Both the position numbers and the translations under genes were made by a program. A model generated the notes under the pieces. That model was not told the DNA's origin. It was given only the letters and a program-made list of their open reading frames with translations, and made no database searches. Below are positions 1 through 30,722 of a stretch of DNA of 30,722 bases, in pieces; positions within the stretch are counted from its first letter, which is position 1; each line of letters starts with the position of its first letter. The stretch comes from a virus: IMG/VR virus record IMGVR_UViG_3300048020_000148, positions 1-30,722 of that record. One strand, written 5' to 3'.

Positions 1-395
1 GCAAGAGTTGTTCCAACGGGTGCAGGAATCACCACAACATTCGAAGGAGGTTTCGGAGTTGAGGATGGAGATTGAGTTGTAACGGGAGCAAGGGTGGTCG
101 GAGCAAGGGTGGTCGGAGCGGAAGTTGTCGTCCCATGAGTAAACGGCACTCCTTCGGGCATATAATAAGTCACCCCATTTAATATATGAGAATGAAATGA
201 TCCGTTTCCTGCCGAGATCGCACAAGGAATGCTTGTATAAAGAGGATAGAAACCTTCGATTGAGAGAGGAGCGTGGCAAGTCGTTGTCGGTGCGAGAGTC
301 GTTACCACTCCCGACCCTCCCTGCGGATTCGGATGATTTATAAAATTCGTTGCCACAATATTTCCGACCAATCCCCCTCCGATTGAGTTGCCCAC
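1..395 (-). CDS. Tail fibre/tail-tip protein, N-terminal part, runs off window edge
   Basis: An open frame begins at a GTG at 395, two codons after the TAA that ends the preceding gene, and remains open to position 1 (131 codons). The product starts with a glycine-rich stretch (VGNSIGGGLVGN), followed by a TTLAPTTT linker, a short globular segment containing CHAP, IPCAISAGNG and HSHILNGVTYY, and then a second Thr/Pro linker (TTSAPTTLAPTTLAP). The last two bases (GC) join in frame to base 30722 to give an Ala codon and then the open frame at 30721..29819, so this is probably the N-terminal third of one protein of about 432 residues. Mucin-like linkers between small domains are common in phage tail appendages. 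No fold was recognised. The start lacks an obvious Shine-Dalgarno sequence. Confidence 0.7.
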   Translation of the reverse strand, partial: MGNSIGGGLVGNIVATNFINHPNPQGGSGVVTTLAPTTTCHAPLSIEGFYPLYTSIPCAISAGNGSFHSHILNGVTYYMPEGVPFTHGTTTSAPTTLAPTTLAPVTTQSPSSTPKPPSNVVVIPAPVGTTL

Positions 396-398
396 ATC

Positions 399-1190
399 TT
401 ACGCCCGTCGCCCAGAAATATAAACTTTCAGTCCAGACCCTGCGGAACTTGATCCGACTTGATCGACATCAATTTTGATTTCTGAATCGTCCGAAATTAA
501 TGGGTTTGAAATGGTAGGCAAAACGCTTGCAGTCTGTGAGGTGGTTTCCCCAGAGTCGATCGATATTAAATCCGTCAAAATGCTTGATCCATTTGCATTG
601 ACATCAACAATGACGGACGATCCCGAAGGTGCATTCGTCAAAGATGCTCGGACATCTTGAACCAAGAAATTAAAAGGGACTCGGAAGGTAACTTTTCCCG
701 ATCCGATTGTCACGGAATCGACCTCGTTCGTGATTGCAACGATGAAATTTTCTTTGAATATTTCCGAGCCACTCGATGCGGTAACAACTTGCCCCGTAAT
801 TTCAACGGGTGCTTGAAGAATCGTTCTTCGATTTCCAGAAAAGTCAGTTGTTTGAATTTCAAAAATGGTCGAAATACTTCCCGATCCGAGAGCAGTTTTC
901 AAGTCGCTTGAGTCGAGGGGAATTTCAACTTGCCATCCGTTGGCAATAGAAAGTGCGGTTGATTGCTCGGCATAAATTGTCCCTCCGATTTCTCCGATCT
1001 GACAAGTCACGCTTGAAAGAGTTTGCGGAGGAATGTAATTCCCCGATCCGTCCGTCAAATAAATATTAAAAGTTCTTGTATCATCCGCAATCAAGTCGGC
1101 AAAGACTCGATTCACGGGATTGCCAAGTCCTTGAATCCTTGCGGTTGTCAAAGATGCGGAATTAATGTTGACGAAAATTTCCTCGATCAT
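399..1190 (-). CDS. Putative tail-tip/baseplate protein, beta-rich
   Basis: A 263-residue protein in the tail-tip cluster after the tape-measure gene. It opens with MIEEIFVNINSASLTTARIQ and then contains a segment resembling BppU-type baseplate or upper-fibre N-terminal domains: FNIYLTDGSGNYIPP, a central EIPLDSSDLKTAL, and TIFEIQTTDFSGNRRTILQAPVEI. That pattern of a typed parameter range followed by a beta sandwich is my reading and not a confirmed match. The C-terminal half (about residues 145-263) is Ser/Val-rich and beta-like (FRVPFNFLVQDVRASL, DVNANGSSIL, EIKIDVDQVGSSSAG), like a carbohydrate- or receptor-facing domain. There is no clear Shine-Dalgarno sequence before the ATG. The gene is followed by the GTG-started fibre gene after three bases. 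Confidence 0.6.
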   Translation of the reverse strand: MIEEIFVNINSASLTTARIQGLGNPVNRVFADLIADDTRTFNIYLTDGSGNYIPPQTLSSVTCQIGEIGGTIYAEQSTALSIANGWQVEIPLDSSDLKTALGSGSISTIFEIQTTDFSGNRRTILQAPVEITGQVVTASSGSEIFKENFIVAITNEVDSVTIGSGKVTFRVPFNFLVQDVRASLTNAPSGSSVIVDVNANGSSILTDLISIDSGETTSQTASVLPTISNPLISDDSEIKIDVDQVGSSSAGSGLKVYISGRRA

Positions 1191-1212: not shown

Positions 1213-1662
1213 TTATAGAAAAATTGGTGACCACAATTGCTCGCCATTAATCAAAACAGAATAAGCAGTATTTGAGGGTGAATATATTTCTGCACATTCT
1301 GGAGAATCAAAAACCGCAAAAGTGAAGTCGCCTTCTGGATTCAATCGAGTTTCTGTTTTGTAAAAATCCGTAAATCTCGGATCGCATAATTGAGTCGTCT
1401 GGGGAGGTTGTGGAGTGGTCGAAGATGTGGGGAAAATTGTTGTCGATGAGGTGGTTGGAAATGGAGTCGTCGATGAGGTGGGTGGAAATGGAGTCGTCGA
1501 TGATGGAAATGGAGTTGTCGATGATGGAAATGGAGTTGTCGATGATGGAAATGGAGTTGTCGATGTCGATGTGGTTGTTCCGTCGCAAGGGTCGCATGGA
1601 CTACCCCGACCACACGGATCGACGCAACATTCTCCGTTCACGGGTTGGATTAAAAAATCCAT
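1213..1662 (-). CDS. Tail-associated protein with mucin-like TTPFPSS repeats
   Basis: A 149-residue protein in three parts. A Cys-rich head (residues 1-28) contains CCVDPCGRGSPCDPC. A low-complexity linker (about 29-92) is built from seven-residue units TTPFPSS and variants TTPFPTS and TTIFPTS. A small C-terminal domain contains RFTDFYKTETRLNPEG, FAVFDSPECAEIY and NGEQLWSPIFL. The linker is almost wholly Thr, Ser, Pro and Phe, like mucin-type O-glycosylated segments. The start codon overlaps the upstream stop by one base (TAATG), so translation is coupled. It is one of three places in the tail region with Thr/Pro repeats of different sequence (TTPFPSS, TTLAP, TTQAP). Function unknown; probably a virion surface or adhesion component. 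Confidence 0.6.
   Translation of the reverse strand: MDFLIQPVNGECCVDPCGRGSPCDPCDGTTTSTSTTPFPSSTTPFPSSTTPFPSSTTPFPPTSSTTPFPTTSSTTIFPTSSTTPQPPQTTQLCDPRFTDFYKTETRLNPEGDFTFAVFDSPECAEIYSPSNTAYSVLINGEQLWSPIFL
1440..1575 (-). repeat. In-frame tandem repeat coding TTPFPSS units
   Basis: A 21-bp tandem repeat, with minus-strand units based on TCCATTTCCATCATCGACAA, encodes successive TTPFPSS heptads. The central three units are nearly identical and the flanking ones are longer and diverged. The unit is a multiple of three, so copy-number change would keep the frame and alter only linker length. Confidence 0.75.
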
Positions 1663-2033: not shown

Positions 2034-2653
2034 CGAGCTTTAACAAGTTGATTTCTCATCTGCCAGATATCACCCATCCATCGAGAAATCTCGGTTTGCT
2101 TTGTTTGCAAATATCCTCCCGAATTCACAAGATAAATATAATCGGGGAAAGTCGGATTTGTATCCGTCGCAATAAAATTGCAATCGTTTCCAGACGCATC
2201 CTTCGGAGAAAATTGATCCGTCAAGATGATATCATTTTCGGGGTCTGTTGTGTGAATGTAAGAATAGGAAACCTTGATCACTCCATTCCTCGAAATTGTT
2301 GTCCGTCGAGTTGTTGTTGATGATGATCGATCCTTGAAGCTTGGAAAAATAAAAGTTCCCGTTTCGAATTCATCTCGATTCGAAGGGATGGTCGAAAAGA
2401 TTCTTGTAAATTTTACAATTCCATTTCCTTCATTCACGGGATTTGTCTCGTTCACAAGAATTGCTTTCGGATCGTCTGGACATTTCATGCCAAGCGGACT
2501 CGGTTGAAAAAGTTCGATGCGATGAGCATATTCAATCGAATAATTAATCGCAGACAAATCCTCACGGATCGGAAAAGTCTTGATCGGGGTGACCGAAACT
2601 CGGATCGGATCGACAAAGTCGTCAGAATAAGGAGAGTCAAAAAATGGTTTCAT
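2030..2653 (-). CDS. Uncharacterised tail protein downstream of tape measure
   Basis: A 207-residue protein encoded directly after the tape-measure gene with an ATGA overlap. In long-tailed phages this is where distal-tail and tail-tip proteins are usually encoded. The visible sequence is rich in beta-type stretches with aromatic residues (FPIREDLSAINYSIEYAHRIELF, NGIVKFTRIFSTIP, GVIKVSYSYI, FPDYIYLVNSGGYLQT) and ends in a helical segment (EISRWMGDIWQMRNQLVKAR). A run RSSSTTTRRTTISR lies near the middle. I do not recognise a domain. Role inferred from position only: tail-tip or initiator-complex component. Confidence 0.55.
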   Translation of the reverse strand: MKPFFDSPYSDDFVDPIRVSVTPIKTFPIREDLSAINYSIEYAHRIELFQPSPLGMKCPDDPKAILVNETNPVNEGNGIVKFTRIFSTIPSNRDEFETGTFIFPSFKDRSSSTTTRRTTISRNGVIKVSYSYIHTTDPENDIILTDQFSPKDASGNDCNFIATDTNPTFPDYIYLVNSGGYLQTKQTEISRWMGDIWQMRNQLVKAR

Positions 2654-5550
2654 TGATTTACAAATTTTCCAGACAAGGCTCGGTTGATTGAATAAAGATG
2701 CCCCTCGGTTGTTGAGAGATCGAGATCGGATGGGTCTTTATCGACAAGGTCGCCCATGAGATTTTCAATATTCTGAAGATGTCCCTTCTGGTCGGTGTTC
2801 AAAGTGAGATCAACATCTCCAAGCTTATTGAAAAAGTCCTCAAATTTCTCAAGTTCTTTTCTGATTTCTCCGAGTCCCTTTTTCCGCTCCTCATTGATGG
2901 TCTCTTCATGTTCTTTCTCTGCCTTCAAGATCGCTCTCTTTTGTGCGATGATTTGATTCTCATAAACGCCCTTATTATGAACTGCGATCTCCTCTTCTTC
3001 AGCAAGTGCCTTTGCGTCAGCAAGTGCAATCGTTCCTCTCTCGATGATTGCGTCCCTTGCTTTCTTTTGTGCGGATGCTTGAGTCGTAACCATATTTTGA
3101 AAGTCCCTCAAGGTCTCGACATTCGGTGGAAGCTTTCCTTCTTCTTTAAGCTTTTTGAACTCTCTATGCATCTCCGCATAATTCGGAGTAATCTTTCCCT
3201 TGAAATCTTTCTGGAAGAATTTCTTGAGTGGCTCAAGTCCATCTTCGGCAACTTTTAATTCTGCTCGAAGTGCTTCAACCTCGGCAAGTTTTGCCTCCTT
3301 GTTTTTGGTTGCTTTGTCTGCCCGATCATTTTCGTCCTTTAAAAGTTTTGCAAGCTCATCAACTTGATCTCGCATGATTCCAAGTTCATCATTTCGAAGA
3401 CCGATAATTTCGTCCTTGAGAAGATTTCGAAGGTCTTGTCTTTTGTTTAAAATATCTTGCTCCGTTTGAGCCAACAAATCCGCTTCACCTTTCTCCAGAC
3501 TTCGAGCGTCCCTCGCATCTCCGATCAATTTTTTCTTTCTCGCCTCAAGATCAAGGATTGCTTGTTGTGTTAATTGAATTTTTCCGAGTGCAGTATTCTG
3601 GAGGACAAATTCTTCTTGAGTTTTTTTGACTGCATTCTCGATATCCTCCTCAAGAAAAAGTGCTTGAGCGAGTGCCTTGTTTCGCTTTGCATCTGCCTCC
3701 GCAAAAGCTTTTGCATTTGCTTTGATTTCTTCTCCTCGTTTGCTTGTCGCATCGATCAATTTTAATTCCGTTTTTTCTTGATCCTCCATTGATCTCAAAA
3801 TCGAAATCTCATTTTTCTTAATATCTTCCCGAATCTTGATTACTTTATTTGATTGCTTTGCGATTTCATTTTGAGATTTACCCTGCTTAACCATCTCAAT
3901 TAATAATTCTTTCTCAACGAATAATTGACCATCCAGATCATCTCTCATGGACTTGGCAGACGCTTGAAATCGCTTCGCTTGAGTGACCATTTTTTTAAGC
4001 TCATCGACTTGCTCACTTAAAGAAAGTTTTTGAATCTTCTCAAACGGATCAAGGTTCTCAATCAATCCGAGAGATTTTTTCATCGCAAGAATTTTTTCAT
4101 CAAGCGTCATTATGTTTTTTGCTAGTTCCTTGCTTTCTTTATTTATCCCTTGAAGGATTTTTTGATCAACGGATTTTTTTAAATCTTCGGTCGTTGTTGT
4201 GAGTGTCTTCCAAGTGAAGACAAGTGCGTCACCTAAAAGCTTGCCCGTTTCAAATGCGAGAAAAAGTGTAGTAAAAGGAAGAGCGAGAGATTTGACGGAT
4301 TTTCCGAGTGCAGTTGATGCAATCGCTGAAAGCTTTGCCCCTGCGGTAAATGCAGTTAAGCCGAGAACAACTTTCGTCAGAATTGGAGCAATCGCAATAA
4401 TCCCTTTTATCATCGTCGCAACTGAATCACCAAGCTTCTTCAAAGCAGGGACGGAGTTCATTAATCCTTGAGTCAAATTCGGCAAGTGTTTTTCAATGAT
4501 GGGAAGAAATGATTCCGCAAATTTCATTCCGACCTCTTTGAAAGTCGCCATAATTTTTGAGAATCGTTGTGAGGTCGTATCGTTCAAACGCTGAAACGCT
4601 TCTTCGGTTGCTCCTGCATCCGCTTGAATTTTGTTAAGGTTTGCCGACAATTCTTTGCCCGAATTTGTGACCAACATCAAAGCCCCATTTCCTGCCTCGA
4701 TCCCTCGAAACATATCCATCAAGCTCATGTTGTTTGCTTCAGCGTGATCCTTCATCTTCATCAACGCTTCTTGGACGCTTCCACCTTGTCGGATGAATTC
4801 TGGAAATGAGACTCCTGCAAGTTCCTTAAAATTATCACTCGCCTTCATTCCTGCCTTCGCAAGTTCGGCAAGCATTGATCGAATTGCAGTCCCTGCTTCT
4901 GCGGTTTTCCCTGCTCCCATCTGCTTAGTCAAGGTCGCAAACATTGCCCCGACCTCGTCAATCTGGATTCCAAGAGCGGAAGCAATCGGGGTGACCTTAC
5001 CAATATTCTGACCGAGTTCGGTCATGGTCGTGACTCCATTTTTTACCACGGAAAAAAGAACATCAGAAACCTTCGTCGTCTCTTTTGCTTCCATCCCGTA
5101 TCCGTTGAGAATTGTGGTCAATGCACCGACTGCATCCTCAAGGGACGAGACCCCTGCAATTGCAGTCTTAGAAGCGTCTTCCAGAAATGTGACTGCATTG
5201 TCTGGGTCAACTCCTGCGGAGATTGCTTGATAAAGTCCATTGACTGCATCGGTCAAATCGATTCCCATCGTCGTCGCAAGTCTTCGAACATCATCCGTCA
5301 TCTTGCCCATTGATTCTTTCGAAGCATTCGGGAGAAGCGTGAAAACTTCGTTGATCTTTTTATCAAAATCGACGAGGTCTTTTATTCCTTTTACTGCAAA
5401 GGCAGTCATTGCCATCGTTGCAATTTTCACCCCACTCGCAATCAGACTTCCGAACTTGTCAGAAAATTTCTTTGTCTTTTCTTCGACTCGTCCAAGCTTC
5501 CGATTAAAATCATCGGTATCGAGTCCCATTTTTGCCAGAATACTTGCCAT
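2650..5550 (-). CDS. Tail tape measure protein
   Basis: This is the longest gene (966 residues), which fits a tape-measure protein. Residues about 65-240 match the TP901-type tail tape-measure core: FTLLPNASKESMGKMTDDVRRLA, GLYQAISAGVDPDNAVTFLE, and the VSSLEDAVGALTTILNGYGM to VTPIASALGIQIDEVGAMFATLTKQ region. Around residues 360-430 there are hydrophobic helices (TMIKGIIAIAPILTKVVLGLTAF and LALPFTTLFLAFETGKLLG) typical of tape-measure membrane segments. From about residue 440 the protein is long, charged coiled coil. By the usual rule of about 1.5 angstrom per residue, the tail would be near 145 nm; that is an inference. The start follows the stop of the chaperone gene directly (TAAATG). Confidence 0.93.
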   Translation of the reverse strand: MASILAKMGLDTDDFNRKLGRVEEKTKKFSDKFGSLIASGVKIATMAMTAFAVKGIKDLVDFDKKINEVFTLLPNASKESMGKMTDDVRRLATTMGIDLTDAVNGLYQAISAGVDPDNAVTFLEDASKTAIAGVSSLEDAVGALTTILNGYGMEAKETTKVSDVLFSVVKNGVTTMTELGQNIGKVTPIASALGIQIDEVGAMFATLTKQMGAGKTAEAGTAIRSMLAELAKAGMKASDNFKELAGVSFPEFIRQGGSVQEALMKMKDHAEANNMSLMDMFRGIEAGNGALMLVTNSGKELSANLNKIQADAGATEEAFQRLNDTTSQRFSKIMATFKEVGMKFAESFLPIIEKHLPNLTQGLMNSVPALKKLGDSVATMIKGIIAIAPILTKVVLGLTAFTAGAKLSAIASTALGKSVKSLALPFTTLFLAFETGKLLGDALVFTWKTLTTTTEDLKKSVDQKILQGINKESKELAKNIMTLDEKILAMKKSLGLIENLDPFEKIQKLSLSEQVDELKKMVTQAKRFQASAKSMRDDLDGQLFVEKELLIEMVKQGKSQNEIAKQSNKVIKIREDIKKNEISILRSMEDQEKTELKLIDATSKRGEEIKANAKAFAEADAKRNKALAQALFLEEDIENAVKKTQEEFVLQNTALGKIQLTQQAILDLEARKKKLIGDARDARSLEKGEADLLAQTEQDILNKRQDLRNLLKDEIIGLRNDELGIMRDQVDELAKLLKDENDRADKATKNKEAKLAEVEALRAELKVAEDGLEPLKKFFQKDFKGKITPNYAEMHREFKKLKEEGKLPPNVETLRDFQNMVTTQASAQKKARDAIIERGTIALADAKALAEEEEIAVHNKGVYENQIIAQKRAILKAEKEHEETINEERKKGLGEIRKELEKFEDFFNKLGDVDLTLNTDQKGHLQNIENLMGDLVDKDPSDLDLSTTEGHLYSINRALSGKFVNQ

Positions 5551-6949: not shown

Positions 6950-7408
6950 TCAACTTGGAAAAGCGTCGTCTCGGATCGCAAATTTAATTTCGAAGTTCAT
7001 TTCCGTCCGAATTAAATCCCCGTCGGTTTCTCGAAATGAGGATTGTTGCCGAATAAATTTTAAGTCGTAAAAAGGGAGATTCGTTTTGTTCCAATTATCC
7101 GCACCCCTCAAAAGGGACGCTCGGACTTTTCCGACGATGTCAAAATGTTCCATCCTTGGTTGATCCAAAAAAGTATCCGTGATTATGTTTGTCGTGAAGA
7201 TCGCTTGATGATTCGTGAACTCTGGATGGTTGTTCGTTTGATCTGCTTCGATCGAGTCGAAAGAGACCTCGATCCGTGGACTCGTCAAATCTTCATTCGA
7301 GCCAGAGACGAAAACATTCGTCCCCGTTGCGGATTCAAGAAAGGTCTTTGAAGCATCCTCGAAATGAAGTTCGAAGGAATATAAATCGGGCAAATCCATA
7401 GCACTCAT
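6950..7408 (-). CDS. Putative tail terminator/tail completion protein
   Basis: A 152-residue protein between the head-tail connector gene and the tail tube gene, the normal slot for the tail terminator (gpU-like) that caps the tube. The sequence alternates strands and helices (LYSFELHFEDASKTFL, RIEVSFDSIEADQTN, HQAIFTTNIITDTF, HFDIVGKVRASLLR, TEMNFEIKFAIR), in keeping with the alpha/beta fold of terminators and their habit of ending in two beta strands. The start codon overlaps the preceding stop (ATGA). No motif makes this certain; function inferred mainly from gene order. Confidence 0.6.
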   Translation of the reverse strand: MSAMDLPDLYSFELHFEDASKTFLESATGTNVFVSGSNEDLTSPRIEVSFDSIEADQTNNHPEFTNHQAIFTTNIITDTFLDQPRMEHFDIVGKVRASLLRGADNWNKTNLPFYDLKFIRQQSSFRETDGDLIRTEMNFEIKFAIRDDAFPS

Positions 7409-7746
7409 TGTCGGGCAAATTTAGAGATTACTTTTAATGAAATCACCGATCCGAAATCTTCCTCGGTTGAATTAAAAACTTTGAAAAGATTTCCTTCGTC
7501 GTCCTTGAGAATTGATCCCTTCGATGGGATTTCTGAATGATGATCTCGATTGATGATGATCTCGGAATCGACATCGTCTTCAACTCCGTGCAATTCAAGA
7601 TCAATTCCATTGTCGATCGATCGGAACGCTCCGACATATTTGACCCCTTGAATTCTGCTCGGAGAAACTCCCTCAATCTCGACTCCCGTTTCGGCAATTA
7701 AAAAATCAAGATCGTTTGAAAAAAAATCTTTCGAAAGTGTTCCCAT
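7405..7746 (-). CDS. Putative head-tail connector/joining protein
   Basis: A 113-residue protein encoded after the capsid region and before the putative tail terminator. Sequence features are moderate: an N-terminal DFFSNDLDFLIAETG followed by beta-type segments (VKYVGAFRSI, GSILKDDEGNLFKVFNSTE, VISLKVISKFARQ). The first part, with a small phage protein that begins with an acidic helix and continues as a beta barrel, resembles gpFII/stopper-type connectors. The ATG lies only 9 bases beyond the T-run of a terminator hairpin, so expression would be reduced relative to the capsid gene. There is no Shine-Dalgarno sequence; the start reads ATAAGATG. Confidence 0.5.
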   Translation of the reverse strand: MGTLSKDFFSNDLDFLIAETGVEIEGVSPSRIQGVKYVGAFRSIDNGIDLELHGVEDDVDSEIIINRDHHSEIPSKGSILKDDEGNLFKVFNSTEEDFGSVISLKVISKFARQ

Positions 7747-7755
7747 CTTATAAAC

Positions 7756-7780
7756 GAAAAAGGAGTCAATTAAGACTCCT
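7756..7780 (-). terminator. Rho-independent terminator after the capsid genes
   Basis: A perfect 7-bp stem, AGGAGTC / GACTCCT, with a 6-base loop, followed on the minus strand by TTTTT. It lies between the 68-residue protein gene and the connector gene, so it should attenuate transcription from the capsid genes into the tail genes. Confidence 0.75.
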
Positions 7781-7823
7781 CTTTCCTCACTACCCCACGA
7801 AGTGAAACTAAATTATAAGGTGT

Positions 7824-8030
7824 TCATTTCTTCGGTTCTGGTTTCGCTTTTGCTTTCGCTTCAGCTTGTCCACGCTTGCGGATCAAGCCTCCACTTGAGT
7901 CAAAGAAAACAACCTTATCGAATTGTGGAAATTTCCCTTTCTTGAATTCCTTCTTCACATCGTTGGCATTGCCAACGGAAACGGAAGTGAATTTCCCACC
8001 TTTTGAACCTACTATTGTCGCAAGCCTCAT
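7824..8030 (-). CDS. Small basic protein downstream of capsid protein
   Basis: A 68-residue protein that starts one base after the capsid stop codon (TAAG-ATG). The N-terminal two thirds are compact (MRLATIVGSKGGKFTSVSVG, FPQFDKVVFFDSSGGLIRKRG) and the C-terminus is a low-complexity Ala/Lys/Pro tail (AEAKAKAKPEPKK). Small genes here often encode head decoration, completion or connector proteins. Nothing in the sequence decides between these. It shares the capsid transcript and precedes the terminator at 7756..7780, so it should be made in quantity. Confidence 0.55.
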   Translation of the reverse strand: MRLATIVGSKGGKFTSVSVGNANDVKKEFKKGKFPQFDKVVFFDSSGGLIRKRGQAEAKAKAKPEPKK

Positions 8031-8031
8031 C

Positions 8032-8949
8032 TTAGGAAGTTACAAGACGAACGATTCCCTCTGGTCGTCCAACCGCAGAACCATAAACGCATTCGAGGAC
8101 TGCGGTTTGCACTCCCATTTTAGCGTCATAAAATTCACGATATCCCATAACAAGACCAGACTTCGGATCGGAAACTCTGCGAGCAGAAATGTACTCTTGA
8201 GTATTTGATGGTTCAAGGTAACGCATCGCAACCGCAAGTCCGCAAGGATGAGCAAGGAAACCTTGAAGATTTTCCGCAGTACCACCTTGTGGATTATTGT
8301 CTGGAACTGAATTTGTTTCATAAACGGAAGGAATTCCGAAAAGACTTGGAACATTACCACCACGGATCGCATCACTTGATCCATAATTCAAAGCGGATGC
8401 GACTGCGGAATCTTTAAGAAGATTTGTGAAATGTCCGTTATTCAAAACCAGACTGCAACCTTCAATCGGAAGATTATTTCCAAGAGCAAGTGATCTCATG
8501 TCTGCAACATCATCCGCATCGAAAGAACCTGCAACCGAAACTTTTTCATCTGAATAATTTGCGGTTGTAATATCGGAGCAAATATCTTGAAAAACTGCTT
8601 TCGCTAAGTCTGCACCTTTTTGATATCCGAAACGCTCAAGCTCAACCGAAGATGACTCGGAGCGTTCTTTGTCGGTGATGTGCCAAGAAACAAACTTATG
8701 ATTATCCAGAGAAATTTGAGTCTGCCCGTAGCTTGTATTCTGCGAAGCATACCCCGTGCTTGCTCCGAAATCAGTTGCGGAACTTGTGTTCGCAAGATTT
8801 AAGATCGTGACCTTATTTCCTCTTTGACTCGCCTCATCGTTGAAGCTTGTCGAGAAAGCATTCAGAGGAGCGAGGATTGAAGCAAACTGCTCCAAGGCAC
8901 TCTGGGAAATTATATTGTTTTGTAAATTTGCGTTTATTGTATTTGCCAT
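8032..8949 (-). CDS. Major capsid protein (P22 coat/HK97-fold type)
   Basis: A 305-residue protein following the protease/scaffold gene. The N-terminal helix (IISQSALEQFASILAPLNAFSTS), the strand region (GNKVTILNLANTSSA), the long turn with SLDNHKFVSWHITDKERSES, and the spine-helix and A-domain type segment (LPIEGCSLVLNNGHFTNLLKD, GIPSVYETNSVP, GFLAHPCGLAVAMRYL, YREFYDAKMGVQTAVLECVYG) fit the P22 coat-like branch of HK97-fold capsid proteins. Gene order (portal, protease/scaffold, capsid) agrees. The protein is shorter than P22 coat (430 residues), so the inserted I-domain of P22 is probably absent. The ATG follows the upstream stop by four bases, with no strong ribosome binding site. Confidence 0.85.
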   Translation of the reverse strand: MANTINANLQNNIISQSALEQFASILAPLNAFSTSFNDEASQRGNKVTILNLANTSSATDFGASTGYASQNTSYGQTQISLDNHKFVSWHITDKERSESSSVELERFGYQKGADLAKAVFQDICSDITTANYSDEKVSVAGSFDADDVADMRSLALGNNLPIEGCSLVLNNGHFTNLLKDSAVASALNYGSSDAIRGGNVPSLFGIPSVYETNSVPDNNPQGGTAENLQGFLAHPCGLAVAMRYLEPSNTQEYISARRVSDPKSGLVMGYREFYDAKMGVQTAVLECVYGSAVGRPEGIVRLVTS

Positions 8950-8953
8950 GATC

Positions 8954-10057
8954 TTAGCCTCTGCGGTTTTTGTTAAAAGATGTTAAAATTTCGGATTTGT
9001 GTTTTCTGAAAAGTTCGGTCGCTTCAGCACCTTCGGCATTTGCGAATTGTTCCTCGATTGAGACGGACTCCAGATTCTCGACGACTTCCTCATCAATTGC
9101 CTCAACTCCCTCAATTAAACTCGAAAGAGTCTCATTGACTTTTTCGCTTTCGGAAAGTTGTCCTTGGAGATCGGTGATCCTCTTATCTGACTCGGTCAAT
9201 CTTTTTTCGAGTTCTTCAATTTTGGATTCAAGAGATGGTTTTTCATCGACTTGCTCCTCGGAAACTTCGGTCGCTTCCTCAAGTTTTTCCTCGATGATTT
9301 CTTCTTCGATTTTTTGTTCGTCAGTCATATTAAAAAGTTTTGTTGAAAATAATCCGTTCTCATTGCTCGCAGGAGCGTCAACAAAGTCGGCAGATTTTAT
9401 CGAAATAAATCGAACGCTCGGAAGGTCTCGGACAAGATTGACTTGATCTTCTTCGTCCAATTCATTCGCAGGAATCTCCTTTCCGCTCTTTAAAACATAA
9501 ACGATCAAAGCTTCGAAAACCAATGAGATTCCAAAAGTTTCGGGCATCTCGGAAGCGATATCAAAAAGACGATTGAATCTTTTTTTCTCGTCCTCCTTAA
9601 ATGATGAAAGTGCCTTGAAGGATCGAGCTTTCAACTTATCCTCCTCGATATAAAATTCGGAAAAGACTCCAACCTCTTTAAGGATTCGATCGGTGGACAA
9701 CGCTCCTTCATGTGTTATATATGCAGGAAGAGAATCCCCGATGACTTCGAGTGCAGTTTCCAAAGATCGATCATCGACGAAAAGATCGTGACCTTTCGCC
9801 TCTCCGACTTGGATTAATGAAAGCTCGGTCATCACACCTTGACTCTGATCAACCTTATGACCAGACCCGTCACGGAATGCGATCCGATGTCTTGAGAATC
9901 CTGCTTTTTCTTTTTCTCCTCGATATCGAGTTTGAATTGAGCAGACTTGGAGTCTTTGATTTAAATCATCGAATTCACTTTTCATCATGTCGTCGCTCAT
10001 GCAACGATCGAGAAAGTTTTGTTCGGTTTCTTCAGCGAGTGGAAATGGTATTGGCAT
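8954..10057 (-). CDS. Putative prohead protease/scaffold fusion protein
   Basis: A 367-residue protein between the portal and capsid genes. It opens with a motif seen at the start of many phage head-maturation proteins: FLDRCMSDDMMKSEF and QRLQVCSIQTR. The middle domain (about residues 75-255: LSLIQVGEAKGHDLFVDDRSL, AYITHEGALSTDRILKEVG, FGISLVFEALIVY) resembles protease-type head proteins of lambda-like phages; I could not fix the catalytic residues. Residues about 260-340 are an acidic coiled coil of E/K/V/S, as in scaffolding proteins, and the C-terminus is basic (FRKHKSEILTSFNKNRRG), as expected for a capsid-binding tail. I infer that scaffold and protease are fused, as in gpC/Nu3-type systems. 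A good ribosome site (AAGGAGAA) precedes the ATG. Confidence 0.65.
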   Translation of the reverse strand: MPIPFPLAEETEQNFLDRCMSDDMMKSEFDDLNQRLQVCSIQTRYRGEKEKAGFSRHRIAFRDGSGHKVDQSQGVMTELSLIQVGEAKGHDLFVDDRSLETALEVIGDSLPAYITHEGALSTDRILKEVGVFSEFYIEEDKLKARSFKALSSFKEDEKKRFNRLFDIASEMPETFGISLVFEALIVYVLKSGKEIPANELDEEDQVNLVRDLPSVRFISIKSADFVDAPASNENGLFSTKLFNMTDEQKIEEEIIEEKLEEATEVSEEQVDEKPSLESKIEELEKRLTESDKRITDLQGQLSESEKVNETLSSLIEGVEAIDEEVVENLESVSIEEQFANAEGAEATELFRKHKSEILTSFNKNRRG

Positions 10058-17963: not shown

Positions 17964-18712
17964 AGTGACAATGGGTCGGAATAATTCCGATCGGTGATGG
18001 GTTGCTTTGCTCCGTTTTTATACTCTGGGAAAAATACTCCTTGCCATTGTGCCTTAATCGAGTCCTTGAGTGCTTGAATCGTCGAATCGAGTCCCCACTT
18101 TTTGAACTCTTTGAATTTCGCCTTTGTTGCAGTTGCTCCAAGTTTCCGATGCTTTGCCTCTTTCCTCATCTGCAAGTACTCTTCCCATACCTCCTTGAAG
18201 ATCGGATCGGGAAATGGGAGGTCTTCTTCCTTCCCCTTAACAATCCCCTTATTATCCTTATCCTTATCCTTATCCTTATATAGTACCCTTGAGGAAGGGT
18301 TACCCGACCCTTGACCAACCCTTGAGCTACCCTTGACCAACCCTTGACCAACCCTTGAGCAACCCTTGACCAACCCTTGGTCATCCATCTCATGTCCATG
18401 ATGTTCAAGTGCTTTTAAAATTGGCTTATGATAGTTTGAGGTCGAAGAAAGTTCCGTCCCGAATTGAAACTTGATGAATTTCGGGATCAAAATCTTGTCT
18501 CCAAGATCGACAATCCGATCCCCTAAGTCCTCAACAAGTGCTTTTATTGAAATTCCGATCCCCGTTTCGAACTGAAACTTTTTCTCAAACTTTTCCCATG
18601 TTCCAGAGTGGTCGCAATTATCCAACAAGTACAACCAGAAGACCTTCGCTTTCGGATCGAGATCGACGAACCAAGGGTCTGACCATTTTGTCGTTTCCGT
18701 GTATCTTTTCAT
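17960..18712 (-). CDS. O-like replication initiator containing origin repeats
   Basis: A 250-residue protein. The N-terminal domain (about residues 1-110: RYTETTKWSDPWFVDLDPKAK, FWLYLLDNCDHSGTWEKFEK, ISIKALVEDLGDRIVDLGDK) is a winged-helix phage replication-initiation domain of the lambda O/DnaD-like group. Residues 113-140 are repetitive (QGLVKGCSRVG, QGLVKGSSRVG, QGSG), because the gene carries seven 11-bp iterons at 18307..18383; a KDKDKDKD run follows from a 6-bp repeat. The C-terminal domain (EVWEEYLQMRKEAKHRKLGATATKAKFKEF, QALKDSIKAQWQGVFFPEYKN) resembles the partner-binding domains of phage initiators. By analogy with lambda O, the protein should bind the iterons and recruit the DnaC-like loader. 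No Shine-Dalgarno sequence is present before the ATG. Confidence 0.75.
   Translation of the reverse strand: MKRYTETTKWSDPWFVDLDPKAKVFWLYLLDNCDHSGTWEKFEKKFQFETGIGISIKALVEDLGDRIVDLGDKILIPKFIKFQFGTELSSTSNYHKPILKALEHHGHEMDDQGLVKGCSRVGQGLVKGSSRVGQGSGNPSSRVLYKDKDKDKDNKGIVKGKEEDLPFPDPIFKEVWEEYLQMRKEAKHRKLGATATKAKFKEFKKWGLDSTIQALKDSIKAQWQGVFFPEYKNGAKQPITDRNYSDPLSL
18255..18278 (-). repeat. Hexanucleotide repeat next to iterons
   Basis: Four tandem copies of TCCTTA, encoding the KD run of the initiator. The array lies about 30 bases to the left of the iterons, beside TATATAG, and is A/T-rich, so it could be the DNA-unwinding side of the origin. It may instead simply encode a flexible linker. Confidence 0.55.
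18307..18383. repeat. Seven 11-bp iterons, probable replication origin
   Basis: A perfect-phase tandem array of seven 11-bp units ACCCTTGACCA (variants end in GCT, GCA; the last is ACCCTTGGTCA), 77 bp in total. To the left an inverted repeat ACCCTT-GAGG-AAGGGT (18285..18300) uses the same core. The unit is one helical turn and not a multiple of three, so coding constraint cannot explain its regularity. Position inside the initiator gene parallels the lambda origin inside gene O. Confidence 0.75.
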
Positions 18713-27246: not shown

Positions 27247-27666
27247 TTATTTTTCTTTTTGTTTTTTGTGCAAATATCGAGAATATAAAATCGGAACGAA
27301 ATTCCAGAGAGCAAATCCGATTCCGCAAAGGATCAGTAAGTCCCATAAATTATCGAGGGTCGATTCGATCCATCCCTTTTGATCTTTCATTGAAAGCTCG
27401 ATCATCTTGGATGCTTCTCCTTTAGAAAGTGCCTCAAATGCCTCGACCTTTTCTTTGATGTCTTTGTCTGAACTCTTCTCGATGATCTGCCCGACTGCAC
27501 CTCCTGCGAGTCCTCCGAGGATCGGTTGACCTCCGATTGATCCGATCCCTGCCCCGATTCCTGCTCCTGCGGTTGGTGCAAAGTTATGCCATGAGCAACC
27601 GACGCAAACAACCAGAGACCAAGTGACGAAAAAGCAAAGGATTAAGAATTGTTCGACCTTCTCCAT
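27247..27666 (-). CDS. Membrane protein with glycine zipper, lysis candidate
   Basis: A 139-residue protein with three notable parts. A hydrophobic N-terminus (residues 5-24, FLILCFFVTWSLVVCVGC) is a signal or anchor with a Cys at 23 that only loosely resembles a lipobox. Residues 30-62 form a Gly-zipper stretch (GAGIGAGIGSIGGQPILGGL, AGGAVGQII) typical of membrane-inserting segments. The C-terminus has a second membrane helix (WDLLILCGIGFALWNFVPIL) followed by a Lys-rich tail. It overlaps the preceding gene by 25 bases and ends the late operon. A pore-forming or spanin-like lysis protein is plausible; not proven. Confidence 0.55.
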   Translation of the reverse strand: MEKVEQFLILCFFVTWSLVVCVGCSWHNFAPTAGAGIGAGIGSIGGQPILGGLAGGAVGQIIEKSSDKDIKEKVEAFEALSKGEASKMIELSMKDQKGWIESTLDNLWDLLILCGIGFALWNFVPILYSRYLHKKQKEK

Positions 27667-27884
27667 GACTCCAAAATCCGATCAATCTTATTTTCTATTC
27701 CATCAAGTCTTTTAAATAGGGTCTCATTCTCGGAAGAGTTCCTCGCCATATTGATCTCAAGTTGATTAATTCTTTTTCCATAAGAATCGAGACGAGCGAA
27801 AATTCCTTTGACCATGAAAGCGACAACCGCAAGTAATATCGTAATAAGTCCTTGGAAAGCGTATAAAATAAATTGATCATTCAT
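27642..27884 (-). CDS. Small membrane/coiled-coil protein, holin-accessory-like
   Basis: An 80-residue protein from the ATG at 27884 (an in-frame TTG at 27890 is possible). It has one transmembrane helix (about residues 6-28, ILYAFQGLITILLAVVAFMV) followed by a coiled coil (RLDSYGKRINQLEINMARNS, ETLFKRLDGIENKIDRILES). A helix plus coiled coil is the layout of XhlA-type or haemolysin-like holin-associated proteins, though here the helix comes first. It lies next to the other membrane gene at the end of the late operon, the customary site of lysis genes. Confidence 0.5.
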   Translation of the reverse strand: MNDQFILYAFQGLITILLAVVAFMVKGIFARLDSYGKRINQLEINMARNSSENETLFKRLDGIENKIDRILESWRRSNNS

Positions 27885-27902
27885 CCACAATTGACGATTG
27901 CG

Positions 27903-28769
27903 TCAAGTTCTCCTTCTTCGGATCGCATCGTCCCGATCCATTTTCATCAACTCATCGATCTCGGATTCAATTGCTTTTAAATCGAGACCTTTATTTGTCT
28001 CCGAAAAGTGGTCATGGATTCCTTGAACATCTTGTTGATTTTCCTTCCACCCGATAAAATAATTCGAGATTCTCTCTTGAATTTTCAGAGAATAAACCAC
28101 TCCTCTCGGACGAGTGAATCGATGATTCCACCTCAACCAAGGGAGACAAATGTTTCTTGCCCCTGCTCGTCTGGTCTTTTCATGGATATATCCCTCTTCT
28201 CCACCGAATCCAAGAAACAACGGATTGAATCCCTGCCAAGCTTTTTTCCGTTGCATGAAGAGTCCGAGTCCATGAAGAGGGATTTCGAACGGATCGCAAT
28301 TTCGATTCGCTCCTCTTGGCGAGTGTTCCCATGTGCCGAACATCTGGGATCGCCATTCGGGTTTCATGTTGGTGCATCCATTTCCCTTTAATGAATCATA
28401 AACCATCACTCCTCCGAAGAGATCATTTGAAGTCGGGTTGTCATTTGCAAATTTCAAAATCCTCCCGATCGTCTGTGGCTCGATTAAAACATGAGGATCA
28501 AGACAAAGAACCCACTCGGATTCTGCTCGCTGAAAAACGAGATCACGGGTTGCGGTTGATCTCCATTCTTTCTCTGGGAAATACTTTGCCCCGATCTTAT
28601 TTGCGTGATCTCTGGTCGCTCGACCTTCCGCACTTTCTGAATTATTGTCGATGATTAAAAATTCGAGTTGATCCATCCGCTCTTGATTCGCCATTCGGAT
28701 CGCTTGCGTAGTAAAAAAGACCCCATCAAAATCATCGAAGGTCGCCATTCCGATCGTTAATTTTCTCAT
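27903..28769 (-). CDS. Glycosyltransferase, GT-A fold (GT2-like, DxH motif)
   Basis: A 288-residue protein. It begins LTIGMATFDDFDGVFFTTQA and EFLIIDNNSES, the nucleotide-sugar-binding start of family 2 type glycosyltransferases. LCLDPHVLI gives D91-x-H93, in the place of the DxD metal motif. DxH is the form found in mucin-type polypeptide GalNAc-transferases. A second region, FNPLFLGFGGEEGYIHEKTRRAG, resembles the acceptor-side GGEE/E-x-D segment of related enzymes, and the C-terminus is a charged helix. No signal peptide, so it acts in the cytoplasm, where it could modify a virion protein. It overlaps the PD-(D/E)XK gene (ATGA). Confidence 0.78.
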   Translation of the reverse strand: MRKLTIGMATFDDFDGVFFTTQAIRMANQERMDQLEFLIIDNNSESAEGRATRDHANKIGAKYFPEKEWRSTATRDLVFQRAESEWVLCLDPHVLIEPQTIGRILKFANDNPTSNDLFGGVMVYDSLKGNGCTNMKPEWRSQMFGTWEHSPRGANRNCDPFEIPLHGLGLFMQRKKAWQGFNPLFLGFGGEEGYIHEKTRRAGARNICLPWLRWNHRFTRPRGVVYSLKIQERISNYFIGWKENQQDVQGIHDHFSETNKGLDLKAIESEIDELMKMDRDDAIRRRRT

Positions 28770-29167
28770 TCAAATATTGTCCATGCTGAACGAAACTTTT
28801 CAAACTTTGCTCGACTATTCGGGTTCGGAAAAACCCGAAGGCAAGATTGATCACCAAGGAACTCAGACGGGATGATATAAAAAATTCGATCTCCATCTCG
28901 TTCGACAATTCCGACGAGGACATCAATTTCTTTTTTGTAGTTAACTCGTTTTTTTCTTAAATTCCCTCTTCTTGTTGTGAAGGTAAAACCACTTTTCTGC
29001 GGAGTTGATGTTCCCTTAATTTGAACTCGAAACATCTTCGAAGATTTATTCGAAATTATAAAATCGAAAGGAAGGTGATTCCCATCGGGTCGAGCTACAA
29101 TCAACCCTCGTCGAGTTGCTTCAAATGCAAAAAGATTTTCCCAGATCAATCCTTTTTCAGAGGTCAT
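28766..29167 (-). CDS. PD-(D/E)XK nuclease-superfamily protein
   Basis: A 133-residue protein matching the small PD-(D/E)XK proteins common in phage and archaea: an N-terminal helix with Glu10 (GLIWENLFAFEATRRGLIVA), then PFDFIISN with Asp35, and FRVQIKGTS with Gln49-x-Lys51 (Q/E-x-K). The basic stretch GNLRKKRVNYKKEIDVLVGIV follows, and the C-terminus is polar. Such proteins may be homing-type or restriction-like nucleases, or nuclease-derived binding proteins. It lies between two sugar-transfer genes with ATGA overlaps on both sides, so it belongs to that late cluster and is not a recent insertion. Confidence 0.65.
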   Translation of the reverse strand: MTSEKGLIWENLFAFEATRRGLIVARPDGNHLPFDFIISNKSSKMFRVQIKGTSTPQKSGFTFTTRRGNLRKKRVNYKKEIDVLVGIVERDGDRIFYIIPSEFLGDQSCLRVFPNPNSRAKFEKFRSAWTIFE

Positions 29168-29832
29168 CGAAAATCTTCAATCGATACTTTCGGCATTGGA
29201 TTAATGCCCGTTGTGACGGGTGACAAATTCACGATCTCAATTCCTAATCTTTTTGAATTCTCAATGAGTTGTTTAAACTTTCCTCTCAAGTGATCCTCGC
29301 CAAGTCTCAACGGGTCGGGAGTGCCTTGACCATAAAAAGAATCTTGCTTCATACCATCAAAGAAATTCTCTCCCCATTTCTTGATCGATTCGTCCCCTTT
29401 CAAATATTGATTTTGTGGATTCGGTTGTCCTCCCTCTCTCCACTTCTTGACTTTTTCGGGATTGTAATCGTGATCAAATCCGAGGAGACCAATTCTTTTC
29501 GGTTTCAATTCAGTCATTATCCAATGGAGTCCGAGAAAGAAAATTGTATAACCGACATAATGTTGCGGACTTGGTGTTTTGATTCCTAATGAATCACAAA
29601 ATTGCTTTGAAGTTTCTTTATATTCTGAATACGAAATCTCGGTCTTGAAGTTTTGTTTCTCTGGACGATTCTCACGGGGGAAGTCTCCCGAATGAATCCA
29701 GAAATCAAATTCCTCAAAAAGTCGCCAAGCGTTATTCGCTCCGCAGATCACAAAATCTTTTTGATCTATCTGATCAATGAGCTTCGATGAGTTCCCCGAT
29801 CCGCAATAAATTATATTCTTAGCAAGAACCAT
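29164..29832 (-). CDS. Sugar-nucleotide-linked protein, DUF115/MAF-like candidate
   Basis: A 222-residue protein with an N-terminal Rossmann-like loop (NIIYCGSGNSSKLIDQI), FVICGANNAWRLFEEFDFWI, a central RIGLLGFDHDYNPEKVKKW, and a C-terminal IEIVNLSPVTTGINPMPKVS. This set is reminiscent of DUF115/MAF-type proteins, known for roles in flagellin or glycan modification, and of similar phage proteins of unknown function near tail genes. The start overlaps the end of the mucin-like tail gene by 14 bases. Together with the GT-A enzyme it forms a late sugar-modification cluster. The fold call is by eye. Confidence 0.5.
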   Translation of the reverse strand: MVLAKNIIYCGSGNSSKLIDQIDQKDFVICGANNAWRLFEEFDFWIHSGDFPRENRPEKQNFKTEISYSEYKETSKQFCDSLGIKTPSPQHYVGYTIFFLGLHWIMTELKPKRIGLLGFDHDYNPEKVKKWREGGQPNPQNQYLKGDESIKKWGENFFDGMKQDSFYGQGTPDPLRLGEDHLRGKFKQLIENSKRLGIEIVNLSPVTTGINPMPKVSIEDFR

Positions 29833-30722
29833 CGACGACCGAAACGGAATTTAGTTGCCATCCCGTTGCATCTTTCGGGTGGGTGGGGACGGATGATTTA
29901 TAATTGTAAGTGCTACCCATGTGCGAGTAAGACAGAAGGGTGGTCGTCCCGTTTCCTCTAGTTAATACCCACCTAATATTGCTTGAAGACTGAGGATTCG
30001 ATTCGATTTTGACTTGAGGTCGTGATGACCCGTTTACCCCCTCATAAATAGGGAAGACATAACCACCACCCATGTCAGTTTCACCGACCTTTGTGAAGGT
30101 AAATGATCCGCTCAAATAATAGGAAGAGGAGGTGACGCAAATTGTTTCGGGTGCTTGCGTGGTGGGTGCTTGCGTGGTCGGTGCAAGCGTTGTTCCATTA
30201 TGGGAAAAAGTTCCGCTTATTGTGGTCACAAAAACATTCGAAACGGGAGTTAATAAATTCACCGAATCTGAAACAATCAAAAGCTCATCTCCTGCACTCA
30301 TCGGGAATTGATACATATTGTACAACCTCCACTTGCCATCAATGAATTTAATCGACCCCCATGATGACGAATACCAATCTTCAGAGTTTGTATTGTTTTT
30401 GACAAAAGTATCAACATAATCATTTCCGCTTTTTGTATATCCAAAATATGTATGACTCGGAATCGCTTGAACTGCACTTCCCGACAAATCAAAACTATGC
30501 GGAACGAAGGCGAGAGTTGTAGTGGGTGCTTGTGTAGTCGGTGCTTGCGTAGTGGGTGCTTGCGTGGTGGGTGCTTGCGTGGTGGGTGCTTGTGTGGTGG
30601 GTGCTTGTGTGGTGGGTGCTTGTGTGGTGGGTGCAATATAAAGCTCAGTCCTAACTAAATATTGATTGTGGCTCGACCAAATTACTGACCCGTTAGAACG
30701 AAGATATCTTTTCCCTCCACTT
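29819..30722 (-). CDS. Tail fibre protein with TTQAP repeats, C-terminal part, open at window edge
   Basis: 301 codons open to the right edge with no start in the window; position 30722 is the last base of a codon that would be completed by the GC at positions 2-1. The sequence begins SGGKRYLRSNGS, then LYIAPTTQAP, seven PTTQA units, PTTTLA, a domain of about 100 residues (HSFDLSGSAVQAIPSHTYFG, EDWYSSSWGSIKFIDGKWRL), a second short linker (TTLAPTTQAPTTQAPE), and a C-terminal beta-type domain (SSYYLSGSFTFTKVGETDMG, GGYVFPIYEGVNGSSRPQVK, IRWVLTRGNGTTTLL, ATGWQLNSVSVVDGSC). A modular adhesion protein of the tail tip; receptor binding is inferred. Confidence 0.7.
   Translation of the reverse strand, partial: SGGKRYLRSNGSVIWSSHNQYLVRTELYIAPTTQAPTTQAPTTQAPTTQAPTTQAPTTQAPTTQAPTTTLAFVPHSFDLSGSAVQAIPSHTYFGYTKSGNDYVDTFVKNNTNSEDWYSSSWGSIKFIDGKWRLYNMYQFPMSAGDELLIVSDSVNLLTPVSNVFVTTISGTFSHNGTTLAPTTQAPTTQAPETICVTSSSYYLSGSFTFTKVGETDMGGGYVFPIYEGVNGSSRPQVKIESNPQSSSNIRWVLTRGNGTTTLLSYSHMGSTYNYKSSVPTHPKDATGWQLNSVSVVDGSC
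30518..30633 (-). repeat. 15-bp tandem repeat coding PTTQA
   Basis: Seven or so 15-bp units on the minus strand (GCACCCACCACACAA and near-identical variants) encode a run of APTTQ. The unit is divisible by three, so expansions or losses would be in frame. Confidence 0.75.

Follow-up and report, generated by a model that had tools for sequence, protein, structure and literature searches.

A probable phage-encoded mucin-like O-glycosylation cassette for Thr/Pro-rich tail linkers

Introduction

On what does a phage glycosyltransferase act when its gene shares a late operon with a tail fibre that carries threonine/proline (Thr/Pro) repeats? The question is raised by IMG/VR virus record IMGVR_UViG_3300048020_000148, analysed here over its full 30,722 bases (the window). 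Three types of Thr/Pro-rich linker occur in its tail-region proteins together with two candidate sugar-transfer enzymes, the GT-A glycosyltransferase (GT) GT288 and the protein M222. Phage virion glycosylation as such is already known and has been documented in few cultured phages. A first-pass annotation of the window had proposed that the phage GT modifies the phage's own Thr/Pro linkers. We estimate at roughly three in four the probability that the locus is a phage-encoded, cytoplasmic, mucin-like O-glycosylation cassette for these linkers.

Results

Thr/Pro-rich linkers in one late operon

The Thr/Pro repeats were present where the first-pass annotation had placed them, and the arrays are tandem DNA repeats, not chance (Table 1). 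The 432-residue tail-fibre-like protein contains 13 TT[QL]AP units, including the TTQAP array of 7.8 copies of a 15-bp unit, and the TTPFPSS array comprises 3 exact units plus variants. All three linker types listed by the annotation were found, but TTLAP and TTQAP share the 432-residue protein and only TTPFPSS is on a separate one. The open reading frame (ORF) from 395 to 3 runs on in frame via the record ends into the ORF from 30721 to 29819, the junction reading ...GTTLA before the joint and SGGKRYL... after it; separate proteins for TTLAP and TTQAP were ruled out by this fusion. Since the frame joins across the ends, the record can be read as a circularly permuted genome that is probably complete. 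The ends (window 1 and 30722) meet in frame inside the tail-fibre gene, yet the record has no end repeats. The TTPFPSS gene stands apart from the fibre gene, a few genes past the tape measure, whose position assigns the repeat proteins to the tail module.

Behind the fibre gene follow M222, a PD-(D/E)XK_5 protein and GT288, each junction being an overlap of 4-14 bases. A search for a separate promoter for this cassette found no promoter-like excess. With its genes overlapping one another as well as the fibre gene, and no such excess, the cassette reads as late. The overlapping genes agree with the annotation's picture of repeats and sugar enzymes in one late operon. Its placement of the enzymes immediately behind the last gene holds for M222, which directly follows the repeat gene, but the PD-(D/E)XK gene between M222 and GT288 had been overlooked.

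Table 1. Positions, strands and supporting evidence for the features discussed in the window
Feature	Position	Strand	Evidence
432-aa tail-fibre-like protein, N-terminal part, GTG start at 395; TTLAP linkers, array 85-119	1..395	-	ORF and tandem repeats
Conserved 263-aa protein of the tail region; its gene is the direct upstream neighbour of the fibre gene with repeats	399..1190	-	Found in three relatives (96/45/42% identity)
149-aa protein of the tail region carrying the TTPFPSS repeats, array 1413-1565	1213..1662	-	ORF and tandem repeats
Tail tape measure protein	2650..5550	-	PHROGs 5.7e-59
82-aa small protein, first gene past the cassette	27642..27890	-	Best match phrog_462, lipoprotein
GT288, 288-aa GT-A glycosyltransferase	27903..28769	-	PF00535 8e-9; motif conservation; model; Foldseek and VIA
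PD-(D/E)XK_5 protein	28766..29167	-	PF11645 1.6e-10; 60% identical and equally placed in L120
M222	29164..29832	-	ATG overlaps fibre stop by 14 bases; model pLDDT 77
432-aa tail-fibre-like protein, C-terminal 300 codons; TTQAP array 30518-30634, second short array 30149-30184	29819..30722	-	ORF and tandem repeats; in-frame continuation of 1..395

GT288 is predicted to have the fold of polypeptide GalNAc-transferases

The first-pass annotation had described a GT with a DxH motif and a GGEE segment. Both are present in GT288, the former as D91-P92-H93 (codons 28499-28491), and H216 is a candidate third metal ligand. PF00535 was the only Pfam family above its curated cut-off (36.1 bits vs 23.3). 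Among 66 aligned rows, D90 and H92 (alignment numbering) were invariant, GGE was nearly so, and H215 was conserved in at least 90%. The downstream His of GT288 aligns with a His of GalNAc-T10, a polypeptide N-acetylgalactosamine (GalNAc) transferase. FGGEEGYIHEK of GT288 aligns with WGGEQYEISFK of the same enzyme, with differences at the Trp and Asn positions of the WGGEN-type motif.

The AlphaFold model of GT288 (predicted local distance difference test, pLDDT, 95.9) forms one soluble globular domain. Polypeptide GalNAc-transferases were its best matches in Foldseek (E 2.8e-12) and occupied all of ranks 1-29 when the model was compared with the PDB by VIA-align (Z 24.0-19.4, 245-260 residues aligned). 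The top match covered 258/287 residues at Z 24.0, and the next-best folds were GlfT2 (Z 18.6) and chondroitin synthase (18.4). The fold matches suggest that GT288 probably works like a polypeptide GalNAc-transferase.

The GT family is preferentially encoded behind mucin-like genes

A single-sequence scan of viral contigs with GT288 found nothing, and the family surfaced only in a DNA pattern scan of these contigs by the GT motif alone (family signature GFGGEEGYIHEK). The scan gave at least 119 loci; the locus counts below refer to the matches listed, whose members match GT288 at 31-61%. The family is abundant in environmental viral contigs, and three members tested, GT288 included, matched none of 50,697 cultured phage records.

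An ORF was called mucin-like when a 30-residue window reached T+S+P ≥0.6, T ≥0.3 and P ≥0.1. Such an ORF was present in 44/119 GT loci. At the strictest thresholds the count was 43/119 vs 0/120 random viral loci (Fisher p 9e-16), the control being similar in total length and not matched for habitat or tail regions. All mucin-like ORFs lay on the GT strand (53/53). In 38 of the 44 mucin-bearing loci the immediate upstream neighbour of the GT was mucin-like, where random reassignment of the mucin label inside each locus gave a mean of 6.9 and never more than 16 in 20,000 draws; the usual gap between the two genes was 10-14 bp. Chance pairing of repeats and GT was rejected by the random-locus control and the permutation. 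The pairing occurred in 28/68 GT clusters (80% identity) and in all three deep groups of the GT tree, and is frequent, not universal. Another arrangement recurs at L127, L134, L141 and about 40 other loci, where the GT directly follows a RecB-like PD-(D/E)XK nuclease (PF12705).

The association was also visible from the repeat side. Fifteen of 50 records picked by the TTxAP pattern had a PF00535 gene over the cut-off, vs 4/50 random records (p 0.009). Five TTxAP phages (loci L020, L022, L029, L056 and L069; records G018, G019, G022, G038 and G048) encode another PF00535 enzyme of about 330-355 residues, which sits some kilobases from the repeat gene.

Linkers and accessory enzymes vary among relatives

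L017 and L112 lie on one contig from a near relative of the window (portal 97%, 207-residue tail protein 98%); an alignment scan with the 207-residue protein found no further relatives. The fibre of the near relative is about 904 residues long and has different domains. L112 shares the first 27 residues of the 149-residue protein but carries TTLAP/TTSTTTT repeats there instead of TTPFPSS. A further relative (L015/L120; TerL 79%) has EPTTSTS linkers. The first 88 residues of the window's fibre are conserved in L112 (80%) and L120 (53%).

Behind its fibres, L120 retains both the PD-(D/E)XK gene (60%) and the GT (66%), the latter truncated where the contig ends, and the place of M222 is taken by two proteins, one of them a sulfotransferase (PF03567, 4e-11). 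The sulfotransferase gene, being PF03567, was missed by a PF13469 search. The comparison with L112 and L120 indicates that the GT and the richness in Thr/Pro are constant, whereas the repeats differ in sequence and the accessory enzyme is exchanged. In the window (28766-29167) and in L120 (11322-11726) alike, a conserved PD-(D/E)XK_5 protein gene separates the GT gene from that of the accessory sugar enzyme. Two fibre proteins encoded at 4877-10018 of L120 combine EPTTSTS linkers with RCC1-like repeats and other domains; the Thr-rich linkers have the look of joints at which modules are shuffled.

M222 and its neighbours in other phages

In VIA, the M222 model, itself of moderate quality, was closest to CstI/CstII (GT42; Z 9.9, 166 residues aligned, 3.6 Å), followed by thiamine pyrophosphokinases and MptE-like HPPK. 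Foldseek gave no significant match to the model. The DUF115/MAF-like label of the first-pass annotation was not matched by any DUF115 or MAF Pfam family; what agrees with it is the MptE-like HPPK fold among those ranked after GT42.

Relatives of M222 occur in phage sugar islands: L002 has one next to NeuB and CMP-sugar synthetase genes, in L003 the relative forms a fusion with a TylF-like methyltransferase, and in L005 it lies beside GT11 and GT25 genes. In L451 (116 kb) and L452 (94 kb), otherwise unrelated phages, a mucin-like tail gene, a family GT and M222 all abut, and in L452 a Glyco_transf_29 (GT29) sialyltransferase gene comes directly after M222. Because relatives sit in sugar islands and the order mucin-like gene, GT, M222 recurs, with GT29 in L452, our best guess, held with moderate confidence, is that M222 is a capping enzyme using a CMP-sugar. 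Farther along the L452 cluster, behind these four genes (7256-9565), a 769-residue protein combines PIG-L de-N-acetylase and CTP-dependent riboflavin-kinase-like domains.

Bacterial homologues adjoin Thr/Pro-tailed proteins

GTs of the family were encoded at 80 bacterial genome loci, usually as proteins of 500-1,100 residues. By family matches, some carry an HprK-related N-terminal domain (HprK-related kinase A-like, TIGR04352), and in one the GT is part of a fusion with GT25 and sulfotransferase domains. Several adjoin a Tat-signal-like protein with a Thr/Pro-rich tail (Rhodococcus, Desulfobulbaceae, Bradyrhizobium and Pyrinomonadaceae), and some adjoin PqqD-like proteins or sulfotransferases; the PqqD-like, Tat-signal and neighbouring-sulfotransferase assignments were made by eye. 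The position of bacterial GTs beside Thr/Pro-tailed proteins gives independent support to the neighbouring Thr/Pro-rich protein as acceptor. At L404, L371, L369, L399, L430 and L440, the HprK-related kinase domain, PqqD-like protein, sulfotransferase, GT and Tat-signal-like Thr/Pro-tailed protein are clustered. These clusters look like an undescribed protein or peptide O-glycosylation system.

Other features of the window

Nearly all genes of the window lie on the minus strand, and terminase, portal, major head protein, tape measure, large serine integrase, ERF and DnaC-like genes are encoded. The 82-residue protein past the cassette presumably marks the start of the lysis genes. An 11-bp tandem repeat of 6.6 copies (18307-18379; GLVKGCSRVGQGLVKGSSRVGQG) lies within the coding sequence of a 250-residue early protein.

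Discussion

The proposal that the phage GT modifies the phage's own Thr/Pro linkers is supported by the adjacency in 38 of 44 loci, by the GalNAc-transferase fold of GT288 and by the sugar-capping look of M222 and its neighbours. From the observed sequences, operon, recurrent gene adjacency and fold matches we infer that the adjacent linker serves as acceptor, together with a sugar, an order of steps, a donor for M222 and any benefit, as follows. The TTQAP, TTLAP and TTPFPSS linkers would sit between globular tail modules, and coupled translation in the late phase would bring GT288 and M222 close to the fibre protein while it is being made. Most likely GT288 would initiate O-glycans by transferring a first sugar, perhaps an N-acetylhexosamine (HexNAc), from a host nucleotide-sugar (UDP-sugar) to Thr residues of the linkers. 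M222, or the sulfotransferase in a relative, would likely cap, extend or modify this sugar before tail assembly. The fibre stalk may thereby acquire a hydrophilic coat, stiff and bottlebrush-like, with conceivable benefits in stalk extension, protease protection, and hiding or tuning of receptor contact.

Several observations weigh against this reading. A PDB sequence-profile search with GT288 returned GT2-type enzymes and no GalNAc-transferase at E 0.01, and GT288 is a catalytic domain alone, without the C-terminal ricin-type lectin domain; for these two reasons we filed it as a PF00535 enzyme and not as a GT27 member. The M222 fold match comes from a model of pLDDT 77, and GT42 has no sequence support, since M222 matched no Pfam family and nothing in a profile search of PDB sequences. 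The fibre gene and GT288 are two genes apart in the window. No PF00535 gene over the cut-off was present in 35/50 TTxAP records, though many of these are fragments. Finally, 43 GT loci follow the RecB-like nuclease with no mucin-like gene nearby, and several large records of this group contain no poly-Thr runs. The first-pass annotation had suggested co-occurrence of GT and repeats as a check: the GT does lie directly behind a mucin-like gene in diverse phages, but relatives with the GT and no repeats, the case it had named as refuting its proposal, exist. These form essentially one clade, which possibly acts on a different acceptor.

The sequence around the linker Thr residues points the same way as the gene order, if less clearly. 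The pocket of GalNAc-T1 reads the +3 Pro position in Muc1 -TSAP- and Muc5AC -TPSP- (PMC10901373), with which the window's -TQAP-, -TLAP- and -TPFP- are comparable. Pro at +3 of Thr was the most enriched offset in mucin-like segments (1.5-fold; 32/38 phage loci), but this test is weak because tandem repeats inflate it and the signal was not found in the bacterial set, a further point against the proposal.

Three other explanations were considered, all less likely than glycosylation of the tail linkers. The repeats could be mere flexible or recombination-prone spacers between receptor-binding modules, with the GT directed at a different virion protein or at some other target. Between the near-identical phages of the window and L112, linker type and downstream domains have indeed been swapped, and many TTxAP proteins have no GT2 in their record. 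However, inert spacers leave unexplained both the position of the GT directly behind a mucin-like gene in so many loci and its like pairing, in bacteria, with proteins that do not belong to a tail. A spacer role is compatible with glycosylation; as the whole explanation we consider it rather unlikely.

Lysogenic conversion, in which a temperate phage would use GT288, M222 and related enzymes to change the surface glycans of its host (lipopolysaccharide, capsule) and block superinfection, the proximity to the fibre being incidental, is improbable and ranks below inert spacers. The phage encodes a large serine integrase, conversion genes are often near tail or integrase genes, and M222 relatives share sugar islands with NeuB and CMP-sugar synthetase. 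The late-reading cassette, however, overlaps the fibre gene without promoter-like excess, the GT288 model is a single soluble domain, and the preferred neighbour of the GT across phages is specifically a Thr/Pro-rich gene. The gtr serotype-conversion set (GtrA flippase, GtrB bactoprenol transferase, membrane GT) had no match among the window proteins scanned, some small ORFs lying outside the scan.

DNA glycosylation, in which the GT would decorate a modified base as in hypermodified-DNA phages, is very improbable and was rejected as the main role: some phage GTs do modify DNA (Pyle et al. 2024, as cited in a passage of PMC12619734), one GT clade sits behind a RecB-like nuclease and GT288 follows a PD-(D/E)XK protein, but the best fold matches are peptide O-glycosyltransferases, the gene lies within the tail operon, and the window proteins scanned included no base-modifying enzyme.

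One environmental GT family is linked here by gene order to mucin-like tails and by fold to the enzymes that initiate mucin glycosylation in animals. If glycosylation of the tail linkers is confirmed, many environmental phages wear sugar-coated tail stalks, which affects tail-fibre modelling, the interpretation of receptor binding and views on the evolution of mucin-type glycosylation. We give even odds to a broader proposal, a widespread prokaryotic counterpart of mucin glycosylation. In it, a family of GalNAc-transferase fold would act on phage tail linkers and on exported Thr/Pro-tailed proteins of bacteria, with interchangeable capping enzymes (sialyltransferase-like or sulfotransferase) and possibly a common origin with the eukaryotic mucin-type enzymes. 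The bacterial homologues in Rhodococcus and others make the reading testable in culturable organisms. A GalNAc-transferase-like enzyme tied to mucin-like phage tails was not found in the literature searched, subscription journals being largely outside the reach of that search.

Among the closest known systems is the virion glycosylation of mycobacteriophages, whose GTs modify virion proteins so that capsid and tail-tube subunits bear glycans (Freeman et al. 2023, as cited in passages of PMC12619734 and PMC11256854). The cassette resembles it in its phage-encoded glycosyltransferases and its virion-protein targets, here predicted, but couples a different enzyme family to mucin-like tail linkers, in uncultured phages. 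The M222 model resembles CstI/CstII of GT42 in fold (Z 9.9), and phage relatives pair M222 with GT29 or with NeuB and CMP-sugar synthetase; no sequence similarity to these sialyltransferases was detected, and the window has no CMP-sugar genes. In the bacterial TIGR04352/PqqD-like/Tat-signal clusters, too, a Thr/Pro-rich protein is the direct neighbour of a homologous GT and sulfotransferases are often present, but these clusters are chromosomal, have extra GT domains and offer a small exported-looking acceptor instead of a tail fibre. Compared with the eukaryotic GT27 polypeptide GalNAc-transferases, GT288 is a cytoplasmic enzyme of 288 residues that lacks the lectin domain and sequence-level membership, whereas it shares with them the GT-A fold over the whole enzyme (Z 24), the DxH and GGE motifs, and a Thr/Pro-rich acceptor-like partner with Pro at +3.

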